From contig NZ_AP025737.1 in NCBI RefSeq assembly GCF_023734115.1, forward strand, positions 2,480,001 to 2,544,000: a DNA stretch of 64,000 bases, read 5' to 3'. The notes below the pieces were generated by a model, which saw nothing but the letters and a program-made list of their open reading frames with translations, was not told the DNA's origin and searched no databases. Positions 22,952 to 42,885 of the stretch are shown in pieces (positions within the stretch are counted from its first letter, which is position 1; the number at the start of each line of letters is the position of its first letter). The translations under genes and the position numbers were made by a program. The stretch is from Herbiconiux sp. L3-i23 (GTDB taxonomy: Bacteria; Actinomycetota; Actinomycetes; Actinomycetales; Microbacteriaceae).

Positions 22952-23368
22952 ATGACGCATCCGATCATGTACGTCGAGGGCGACTTCGGTCTCGATCGGT
23001 TGCGCGAGATCTGCCTCGGCTTCCCCGAGGCCACGGAGCGGGTCTCGCACGGACGCCCCTGGTTCTTCACGAACACCGGTTTCGCCGTCTACGGCGGTGG
23101 CACGCGCGGACCCGACAAGGTCCGGTACGACAACGCGGTGCTCGTCAAGGTGGAGGACGGACACGACGAGGCCCTGCTGCAGGACTCCCGCTTCTTCCTG
23201 CCCGCCTACCTGGGCCCCGCCGGCTGGGTCGGGCTCGACCTGACAGCCGCCGAGGTCGACTGGCAGGAGGTCGCCGAACTGGTGGACGAGTCCTACCGCC
23301 TGACCGCGCCGAAGCGCTTGGTCGCGACCCTCGACCGCGACGGCGGCCCCGCCGACCGCGCCACCTGA
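22952..23368 (+). CDS. MmcQ/YjbR family protein
   Basis: A 138-residue small alpha/beta protein of the MmcQ/YjbR family, whose fold resembles the DNA-binding domain of some regulators but whose role is not established. Typical blocks are ICLGFPEATERVSHGRPWFF and a C-terminal WQEVAELVDESYRLTAPKRL, both readable. ATG 22952 has AGGAG 8-9 nt upstream. Transcribed away from eno. Its 3' end is followed directly by the A/B repeat array. Confidence 0.85.
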   Translation: MTHPIMYVEGDFGLDRLREICLGFPEATERVSHGRPWFFTNTGFAVYGGGTRGPDKVRYDNAVLVKVEDGHDEALLQDSRFFLPAYLGPAGWVGLDLTAAEVDWQEVAELVDESYRLTAPKRLVATLDRDGGPADRAT

Positions 23369-23416
23369 CCCTGACTCCCTGCTTTCGGCTCTCGGCTCTG
23401 CCCCTCTCGGCCGGAT

Positions 23417-23508
23417 CACTGACCGAATCAAGGAAAAAACGGGGTCGAGTCACACATCCATGCCGATCCGAGCCCGCCGCGCCCGAAATCTCCTTGATTC
23501 GGTCAGTG
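23417..23508 (+). repeat. A element, copy 1
   Basis: Perfect 18-bp arms (23417-23434, 23491-23508) ending in GACCGAATCAAGGA and its complement. The 56-nt interior contains the conserved core GTCGAGTCACAC ... GCCGATCCGAG. The interior is asymmetric, so the element has a direction (assigned + here). Confidence 0.92.
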
Positions 23509-23531
23509 ACCTGGCCGCATCACGGCGGGCG

Positions 23532-23621
23532 TCTGACCGAATGCAGGAGAGATTGCGCTGAGGTGCCCGAAATGGCCCCGTTTCAGCCCCCGCAGCGAAG
23601 AATCTCCTGCATTTGGTCAGA
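23532..23621. repeat. B element, copy 1
   Basis: 19-bp arms (23532-23550, 23603-23621) based on CTGACCGAATGCAGGAGA, with one G-T difference that would still pair as G-U in RNA. The interior is unlike the other B copies. Confidence 0.9.
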
Positions 23622-23655
23622 GACGCACGGCGTGCGGCTCGCGAAACCGGGCCGT

Positions 23656-23745
23656 ACTTACCAAATCAAGGAAAAAGCAAAGTCGAGTCACACGTTCATG
23701 CCGATCCGAGGCCGTGGCGCTCGAAATCACCTTGATTCGGTCAGT
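23656..23745 (+). repeat. A element, copy 2
   Basis: 16-bp arms (23656-23671, 23730-23745) with two mismatches. The core GTCGAGTCACACGTTCATG then CCGATCCGAG is nearly identical to copy 1. Confidence 0.88.
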
Positions 23746-23770
23746 GACCGGGCCGAGTCACGGCCTGTCT

Positions 23771-23858
23771 CTGACCGAATGCAGGAGAAAATGCGGCGGG
23801 AGGGCCGATTCGGGCCCATTTCGGGCTCCGACGAGCAAAATCTCCTGCATTCGGTCAG
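23771..23858. repeat. B element, copy 2
   Basis: Perfect 18-bp arms (23771-23788, 23841-23858), CTGACCGAATGCAGGAGA and complement. It ends 30 bp before the hisS stop. Confidence 0.92.
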
Positions 23859-23888
23859 GAACCGGGTCGTTGGGGCAGAGACGAGGGG

Positions 23889-25136
23889 TCAGCCGAGCTG
23901 TTTGGCCTGGCCCACGGTGCCGTCGGCGCTGACCGTGGCGAAGTGGGTCCAGCCGTCGGCGGCGAGGGTGTCGAGGAGTTTGCCCAGGTTGCGCGGGCGA
24001 CGCTCGAGTCGCACCCGCCCCGCCGTCTCGAGGGCCTGAGACTTGGCCCGCACCACCAGCGCCGGGTCGAGGTCGGCGTCGTAGACGAGCACGAGCGCGT
24101 CCTCGGCGTCGGCACCGGCGTCGGGCAGCAGCTCGAGGATGCGTTCGAAACCGATCGAGAAACCGACCGCGGGGACGTCCTGGCCGAGGAAGCGGCCGAT
24201 CATGCCGTCGTAGCGTCCGCCGCCCGCGACCGAACTGCCCGACCCGGGGTGGGCGACCTCGAAGATCGTGCCCGTGTAGTACCCCATGCCGCGCACCAGA
24301 GTCGGGTCGAACACCATCTCGGCGGACGGCACGGCGTCGCGCAGCGCGAGCAGGTGCCGGTAGGCGTCCCGGTCGAGCCATGCCGGTGGCATATCACCGT
24401 CGAGCAGCTCCCACCCGGCGGAGGTGATCTCGTTCAGCGAATCCGCGATGCCGGCAGTCTCGAAGCCCAACTCCCCCAGCTCGGCGACAACCCCGTCGAC
24501 ACCGACCTTGTCGAGCTTGTCGATCGTGATCAGGGCGCGCTCGCCGAGGTGCTGCGAGATGCCCCACGACGCGAGCAGGCCGGCGAGGATGCGACGGTCG
24601 TTGACCCGCACGCTCGCGCCCTCGATGCCGACGGCGGCGAGCGCCGCGGTCGTCGCCGTGATGAGCTCGATCTCGGCGAGCGGCGAGGCGTCGCCCAGGA
24701 TGTCGATGTCGCACTGCACGAACTGGCGGTAGCGACCCTTCTGCGGTCGCTCGGCCCGCCACACCGGACCGGTCTGCAGTGAGCGGAACACGGACGGCAG
24801 TTCGGCGCGGTGGCTCGCGTAGAACCGGGCGAGCGGCACCGTCAGGTCGTATCGCAACCCGAGGTCGGCGAGCTGCAGTGCATCGCCCGCCTCGGTCGCC
24901 GCGCGCAGATCGTCACCGTCGATGCCGCGCTTCAGGATGCTGAACGAGAGCTTCTCGTTGTCGCCGCCGAGCCCAGCGTGCAGGCGGTCGAAGTCTTCGA
25001 CGACCGGCGTCTCGATCTCGTCGAAGCCGTGCTGGGCGTAGACCCGCTTGATGACGGCGAGGACGCGTTCGCGGCGCGCCTTGTCGGCGGGAAGGAAGTC
25101 GCGCATGCCGCGCGGCGGATTGATGGGTGCAGCCAC
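23889..25136 (-). CDS. hisS: histidyl-tRNA synthetase
   Basis: Class II aminoacyl-tRNA synthetase charging tRNA-His; 415 residues. The N-terminal PPRGMRDFLP, motif 2 (GPVWRAERPQKGRYRQF), the histidine-binding block GMGYYTGTIFEV and motif 3 (VGFSIGFERI) are present, followed by an anticodon-binding domain. GTG 25136 is used as the start because it gives the family N-terminus; the upstream in-frame extension is Arg-rich shadow. A divergent ABC exporter starts 66 bp away. Confidence 0.95.
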   Translation of the reverse strand: MAAPINPPRGMRDFLPADKARRERVLAVIKRVYAQHGFDEIETPVVEDFDRLHAGLGGDNEKLSFSILKRGIDGDDLRAATEAGDALQLADLGLRYDLTVPLARFYASHRAELPSVFRSLQTGPVWRAERPQKGRYRQFVQCDIDILGDASPLAEIELITATTAALAAVGIEGASVRVNDRRILAGLLASWGISQHLGERALITIDKLDKVGVDGVVAELGELGFETAGIADSLNEITSAGWELLDGDMPPAWLDRDAYRHLLALRDAVPSAEMVFDPTLVRGMGYYTGTIFEVAHPGSGSSVAGGGRYDGMIGRFLGQDVPAVGFSIGFERILELLPDAGADAEDALVLVYDADLDPALVVRAKSQALETAGRVRLERRPRNLGKLLDTLAADGWTHFATVSADGTVGQAKQLG

Positions 25137-42465: not shown

Positions 42466-42555
42466 ACTGACCGAATCAAGGAAAAACCGGGGTCGAGTCA
42501 CACGTTCACGCGGATCCGGGCCCGTTGACGCCGAAATCTCCTTGATTTCGTCAGT
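42466..42555 (+). repeat. A element, copy 3
   Basis: 17-bp arms (42466-42482, 42539-42555) with two mismatches. The core GTCGAGTCACACGTTCACG then CGGATCCGGG matches the other A copies. Confidence 0.9.
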
Positions 42556-42580
42556 CGCCCGTGCCTCCCAGCCCGGGTGC

Positions 42581-42668
42581 CTGACCAAATGCAGGAGAAA
42601 CTGCATGCGACGCCTCGAAAACGGCCCTCTGACCGCCTCTGCGGCCAGAATCTCCTGCATTCGGTCAG
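42581..42668. repeat. B element, copy 3
   Basis: 18-bp arms (42581-42598, 42651-42668) with one mismatch. Outer sequence CTGACC(A/G)AATGCAGGAGA. Confidence 0.9.
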
Positions 42669-42682
42669 CAGCGCGCGGGTGG

Positions 42683-42772
42683 ACTGACCGAATCAAGGAG
42701 AAAGCAGGGTCGAGTCACACGTTCATGCGGATCCGAGCCCGTTGACCTCGAGATCTCCTTGATTTGGGAAGG
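42683..42772 (+). repeat. A element, copy 4
   Basis: The inner 13 bp of the arms pair with one mismatch (42688-42700, 42755-42767); the outer right arm is decayed. The core GTCGAGTCACACGTTCATG then CGGATCCGAG is intact. Confidence 0.85.
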
Positions 42773-42797
42773 ACGGACCGGCTCACCGCCGGTGGCT

Positions 42798-42885
42798 CCG
42801 ACCGAATGCAGGAAAAACTGACACGCGCGCGTCGAATGACGGCGTTTCGGGACTGTTCCGGCCGAAATCTCCTGCATTCGGTGAG
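42798..42885. repeat. B element, copy 4
   Basis: Perfect inner 13-bp arms (42801-42813, 42870-42882), ACCGAATGCAGGA and complement; outer bases decayed. It ends 17 bp before the pth stop. Confidence 0.87.

Follow-up and report, generated by a model that had tools for sequence, protein, structure and literature searches.

What are the four palindromic units found between two converging genes of Herbiconiux sp. L3-i23, and by which enzyme, if any, are they spread?

Array 1 and the dispersed A and B families

The window, i.e. the whole 64,000-nt stretch of DNA analysed, hosts at positions 23420-23857 two related inverted-repeat elements in the order A-B-A-B (array 1), as the original prediction had described. 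Element A1 (23420..23505, + strand) has inverted half-sites 71 bp apart. It is followed by B1 (23534..23619, no strand assigned), by A2 (23658..23743, + strand), the left half-site of which is degenerate, and by B2 (23772..23857, no strand assigned); both B units were delimited by element parsing. The alignment of 34 A elements places a conserved asymmetric centre at 23449..23470 (+) in A1 and at 23687..23708 (+) in A2. B starts 114 bp after A, and the A-B pair has a period of 238 bp; the values first given, 115 and 239 bp, have to be corrected by one base each. As claimed, A1 and B2 have perfect 18-bp arms, folding pairing at least that many bases in both. All four elements fold beyond chance when compared to shuffled sequences, with z values of -6.47 (A1), -9.19 (B1), -3.95 (A2) and -7.54 (B2); 0, 0, 1 and 0 of 200 shuffles, respectively, folded equally well.

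The array lies between a left reading frame (22952..23368, + strand, stop at 23368) and a right one (23889..25106, - strand, stop at 23889), which from their translations we take to be YjbR/MmcQ-like and HisS-like, respectively. The HisS-like frame has one single best match per genome in 8 genus genomes. The array was said to fill the whole gap: the elements do occupy most of the 520 bp between the converging frames, and 51 and 31 bp remain outside them. A 14-base inverted repeat located outside the array (23391-23404 and 23872-23885) was considered and is taken as a chance match, since 12 of 14 positions are reached at 2 of 28 clusters, and by shuffled pairs in 6.9% of cases. A second ABAB array is found in the window at 42468-42884, made of A elements at 42468..42553 and 42685..42770 (both +) and B elements at 42582..42667 and 42799..42884 (no strand assigned).

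Further copies, on which the original prediction depended, are dispersed in the 3.18 Mb host genome, where 67 elements (34 A and 33 B) have been parsed in 28 clusters; one AB row at 763644 was left out of the counts because it overlaps a BB row. A DNA search of this genome gave 62 matches, and among the matches listed for covariance models of A and B all fall on parsed elements. With at most two mismatches, 90 genomic occurrences of TGACCGAATCAAGG were counted, versus one of the reversed-pattern control. Most elements measure 86 bp (57 units), the others 87 bp (5) or 85 bp (5). Half-site starts are spaced 70-72 bp in 67/67 parsed elements, within a parsing window that allowed 64-80 bp. The half-site is TGACCRAATCAAGGA in A and TGACCRAATGCAGGA in B, and is inverted in each element. 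The interior of A carries the asymmetric centre GTCACACGTTCATGCSGATCSG; that of B is variable in sequence and nearly constant in length. As dispersed intergenic inverted doublets, the elements have the REP-like character that had been anticipated. Neither a GTAG nor a CGTC tag is present in the conserved arms of A and B upon inspection of the consensus. The arms are inverted, and no target-site duplication was noticed in element flanks read by eye. Several copies of another repeat (e.g. unit GTCGTCGAGTAGGCGCGCCAGCGCCGTATCGAGACGG) lie upstream of a B element (L031:890-1520).

Both families extend to relatives, again in line with the original prediction. The A covariance model matched 8 of 60 genomes, host included; two of these belong to other genera, and the remaining six are among the 9 genus members. 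The B model matched 9 of 15 hand-chosen genomes. Elements of the same architecture and with other arms were found in relatives, as TTCCCRAATCACGGAGA and CTGACCGAATGAAGGAGA in the uncultured Naasia MAG G008, GGCGTGACGAATCAAGGAGA in G003 and TTGCAAATTTGAAGGAGA in G012. Palindromy, length, an inner GGAGA and often a CATGCSGATC centre are kept across genomes. In G002, which has no elements by the A or B model, the same two genes that flank array 1 converge with 7 bp between their stops, versus 520 in the host; the extra host stretch exceeds array 1 in length. Array 2 is also missing from G002, but the left neighbour differs there by eye. Palindromes of another type, with arms similar to GCCACTTG/CAAGTGGC, are located in gene-end gaps beside hisS/pth in G004, G006 and G003 (L160, L223 and L224, respectively).

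A DUF559 nuclease gene enclosed by B elements

REP-like repeats could be expected to accompany a RAYT/TnpA-REP transposase gene. The corresponding profile PF01797 has no match in the host genome; the control search was positive in 5 of 14 known genomes. A different gene is enclosed by two B elements at one host locus (L032, G000:C1:1039832-1040980). One of the two B elements ends in the TGA that stops this gene (L032:1616-1618); at G000:C1:1006136-1006138, too, a neighbouring frame is stopped by the terminal TGA of an element. The encoded protein, analysed as P0001 with one codon ahead of the likely GTG start, matches Pfam DUF559 (E 8.7e-10). The AbiEi_4 profile was matched by 10 of 22 proteins at E up to 0.01, the P0001 match being weak and below the Pfam cut-off, and the PADLOC AbiEi profile gave a weak sequence match (E 0.0015).

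The structure of the Naasia aerilata protein was predicted by AlphaFold2 from an alignment including 12 relatives (pLDDT 91.2, pTM 0.86). Residues E197, D224, E234, H241 and D247, invariant in the alignment, presumably form an EDxHD-type active site. The prediction for the modelled DUF559 protein is an AbiEi-antitoxin-like part fused to a nuclease domain resembling those of I-Bth0305I and Vsr, the latter being a mismatch-repair nuclease (very-short-patch repair endonuclease). Four Foldseek matches were obtained up to E 0.001: the I-Bth0305I catalytic domain (two chains), an AbiEi antitoxin and an endonuclease-like protein. The top match is I-Bth0305I (PDB 3r3p), with a TM of 0.76 over the PDB domain; Vsr (PDB 1cw0) was matched at E 0.011. 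The AbiEi fold match (6y8q) superposes poorly, with an rmsd of 10.9, another chain giving 5.9 at E 0.0028.

Close homologues of the gene (54-60% identity) were found in 4 of 9 genus members, i.e. the host (G000), N. lichenicola (G001), N. aerilata (G006) and, twice, G008, all of which have elements. The five genes pass the two-sided palindrome test, the one at G008:C17 only at threshold, and in G008 a gene of 60% identity is enclosed by two elements native to that genome. Neither elements nor a close nuclease homologue were found in G002, G004 and G007. Elements are present in G003 and in the 68%-complete G005, and no close homologue was found in either. The A arms correspond to the arms flanking the nuclease genes of N. 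aerilata and N. lichenicola; no close nuclease for A was found in the host genome, and A's own gene seems to be missing there. A matching nuclease was similarly not found for the elements of G003, G012 and G024, where the arms of dispersed elements are unlike the arms beside the DUF559 genes detected.

The gene does not interrupt its own target site, full elements being present on both sides. In G000, G006 and G008 the close nuclease gene lies beside dapA; a clean empty site is not available at dapA, because the other neighbour differs in genomes devoid of the nuclease. Beside dapA, G001 hosts a different DUF559 gene (40% identity; L148, L114; G001:C2:63065-64997), around which no palindromes were found. 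A second host DUF559 gene (L121, G000:C1:1237098-1237943) is flanked by palindromes with arms TGCACGGATCAGGA. Allowing one mismatch at most, 114 copies of this half-site were counted genome-wide, versus 0 for the control; a frequent arrangement is a direct pair, spaced 19 bp, that faces an inverted pair. A third host DUF559 gene, of another type (L225, G000:C1:1551696), has no such palindromes within 4.3 kb. Two B elements also enclose an SRPBCC-like frame that looks broken (L031:1532-2163; G000:C1:1020131-1020762); it was weighed as a partner, and set aside.

The pairing was scored at DUF559 loci as the presence of same-arm palindromes on both sides, found at 28 of 42 loci, or at 24 of 38 when four loci fetched twice are counted once. 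The scored loci stem from 29 of 34 matches of one search and 13 of 14 of another; L129 (a fragment), L143 (partial) and four matches without a locus were left out, and the 12 genomes behind the 34 matches had been chosen mostly for having elements. None of 200 random 850-bp stretches, all taken from the host window, reached the score, palindromes unlike each other being found on both sides in 7 of the 200. The dapA and hisS loci were similarly negative (0/16). Two-sided palindromes are missing at 14 of the 38 loci, three of which (L136, L137, L142) belong to the close subfamily. In a Microbacteriaceae family sample (30 loci of 82 matches), 9 loci scored, and 7 further loci had palindromes on at least one side, below score; five of the 30 were already in the first set, two of these being the host's. 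Only 3 of 30 loci scored in a class-wide sample, one of them the host's own, with 8 of the 30 shortened by contig ends. From the family and class-wide samples, the pairing is strong in part of the Microbacteriaceae, and is not general. In G116, a DUF559 gene (L182) has arms CCAAGTGGC at one of its sides.

Arms sort by protein group. Loci of the P0001 group carry AAATGCAGG or AAATCAAGG, those of the second group TCAGCAGG or TCAACAGG, those of the third GGATCAGG or GGATCCGG. Arm and protein relatedness are correlated (Mantel r 0.59, equalled by 0/20,000 permutations) in a set of arms hand-picked from 27 loci, three of which had failed the two-sided score. Within the family, the association of nuclease and elements is well supported.

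Array organization, the proposed mechanism and its rivals

Where neighbouring elements lie less than 100 bp apart, A is followed by B or B by A in 38 of 39 cases, a figure equalled by 0/20,000 label shuffles, and A elements face the same way in 10/10 arrays holding at least two of them. Elements are separated by 8, 14, 16-19, 27-29, 38 or 93 bp, that is, in steps of about 10 bp. The phasing is marked (Rayleigh R 0.86 at 10.5 bp; the observed maximum was reached by 0/20,000 random sets), and the linker sequences are mostly unrelated. We read these steps as reflecting proteins that sit, on adjacent elements, on one face of the helix.

We think it somewhat more probable than not that array 1 is a hybrid cluster of two short non-autonomous REPIN-like families, each cognate to an AbiEi-like/Vsr-EDxHD (DUF559) nuclease whose own gene lies between copies of the element. 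The whole suggests a selfish repeat system like those of other bacteria, tied to a different enzyme, and we infer that the elements are moved by the nuclease. As a dimer, this enzyme would read both inverted half-sites, and cut or nick at or near them; repair or recombination may then copy the elements into intergenic sites beside gene ends, the copying being conjectural. B would be served by the host's own nuclease. A may have lost its own gene in the host, or may be served in trans. Arrays would grow where A- and B-bound complexes stand adjacent in helical phase. The broader proposal is put forward tentatively, at a confidence somewhat short of even. These would be new miniature mobile palindromes: 86-bp doublets that flank the gene of a Vsr/EDxHD nuclease with an AbiEi-like part and are spread through Microbacteriaceae by that nuclease, an enzyme of neither the HUH nor the DDE kind; arms and protein would coevolve, two families would build phased A/B arrays, and the system would be a convergent counterpart of RAYT and REPINs, down to the 71-bp spacing.

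Should the palindromes be host elements with a function of their own, e.g. sites for a chromosome-organising protein, the nuclease gene would be a parasite of the homing type, inserting into or next to them and not spreading them. Alternation and helical phasing do resemble a nucleoprotein array, the nuclease gene is placed inside an element pair, and the gene-less A family keeps its half-sites just as well as B does (mismatches per 15: 0.43 in A, 0.45 in B). However, arms vary by species and track the nuclease subfamily, even among the several nucleases of one genome, and genus members free of elements exist (G002, G004 and G007), so that we regard this explanation as unlikely. A classical REP/RAYT or MITE family, of which only remnants survive and whose transposase was lost or escaped recognition, would equally account for REPIN-like inverted doublets 71 bp apart and dispersed between genes, and REPs of RAYTs are known to form hybrid clusters. 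Such an origin is very improbable, given that the one transposase domain searched for, Y1_Tnp, was not found in the host genome, that the arm consensus lacks GTAG, and that host and relatives alike have a DUF559 nuclease gene as the enclosed gene.

The elements might instead work at the RNA level at gene ends, either terminating transcription in both directions or acting as hairpins that stabilise 3' ends, and their arms can in fact form strong stems. Gene context was derived from a simple home-made codon-based caller, which missed a frame at cluster 2522468; this cluster was therefore reassigned manually from '--' to '+-'. Two clusters fall inside predicted frames and 26 of 28 are intergenic, in convergent (10), tandem (13) or divergent (3) gaps. 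The convergent setting noted at first is thus true of array 1 and is no rule (10/26, the moved cluster included). A gene 3' end is present on at least one side of 23 of the 26 intergenic clusters, again with the one moved by hand, and divergent gaps are under-used (3/26 clusters versus 8/19 window gaps >100 bp; p 0.033). Both features would suit RNA elements. Against them, A elements show no uniform orientation with respect to the upstream gene, and terminator-like sites are at chance (1 versus 0.6 expected). A interiors fold like shuffles (mean z 0.13, one element at -5.7), B interiors slightly better than shuffles (mean z -0.91). Pairing across the dyad matches the column-level expectation except at position 12 of A, with one double change, and at position 1 of B, where pairing is mildly in excess; interior pairing in the A and B alignments gives no support to compensatory changes keeping a hairpin. 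At the variable arm position 6, 17 G-C, 24 A-T, 15 G-T and 11 A-C combinations were counted, with no significant association (Fisher p 0.087). As interior base pairing is apparently not conserved, the term hairpin used in the original prediction suits the arms only. An Rfam search of the window returned one tRNA and nothing else above threshold, so none of the elements matches a named RNA family there; a permissive search (E up to 1) of L001, L062 and L097 gave one weak overlap with an element, RT-13, at 22.3 bits versus a cut-off of 69.1. Recognition of the half-sites by a protein, on double-stranded DNA, fits better than a conserved RNA, a weak pairing association being possible, and an RNA-level role looks even less probable than a lost transposase.

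Comparison with known systems

Of the ways in which REP-like palindromes spread, that of the HUH-type RAYT enzymes has been studied best. If the nuclease reading is true, a REP-like lifestyle has evolved more than once, via a nuclease of another fold. DUF559/MTES_1575 proteins would gain a candidate role, many naturally matched protein-site pairs would become available for tests of DNA recognition, and otherwise puzzling intergenic palindromes of Microbacteriaceae would be accounted for. In the titles and abstract openings of the open-access literature searched, no pairing of DUF559 or Vsr-like proteins with dispersed palindromes was found, and none of the articles mentioning DUF559 is, by title or abstract opening, about repeats.

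Single traits recall three groups of proteins. Vsr (PDB 1cw0) has a related predicted catalytic fold (Foldseek E 0.011), but the gene described here is enclosed by palindromes. The predicted catalytic fold is shared also with I-Bth0305I (PDB 3r3p), for which dimerisation on a target close to 60 bp long has been described (PMC3943268). In contrast, the present gene lies outside introns and splits no single site, being located between full copies of a dispersed palindrome. The type IV antitoxins AbiEi and Rv2827c resemble the AbiEi-like N-terminal part, on weak profile and fold matches. According to PMC7319586, AbiEi binds 23-bp inverted repeats 3 bp apart, and the Rv2827c repeat pairs are 13 bp apart; here the AbiEi-like part is joined to a nuclease, and half-sites are 71 bp apart and found genome-wide.

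The closest likeness is to REP/REPIN-RAYT systems and BIMEs (PMC2817692, PMC3116915, PMC3733652, the last also treating RAYT-REP families). Dispersed intergenic palindromes and inverted doublets at fixed spacing are common to both, and in GI REPINs invariant half-sites similarly start 71 bp apart (PMC3116915). An enzyme gene enclosed by repeats, the covariation of arms and enzyme, and hybrid clusters of two families are also shared. The present elements have REPIN-like anatomy, but stand outside the REP/RAYT group, because they lack a Y1 transposase and a GTAG tag. Compensatory pairing of the interior is not a feature of the present elements; the associated enzyme is a DUF559 nuclease of the Vsr/EDxHD type instead of a Y1 HUH transposase, and two element families alternate in helical steps.
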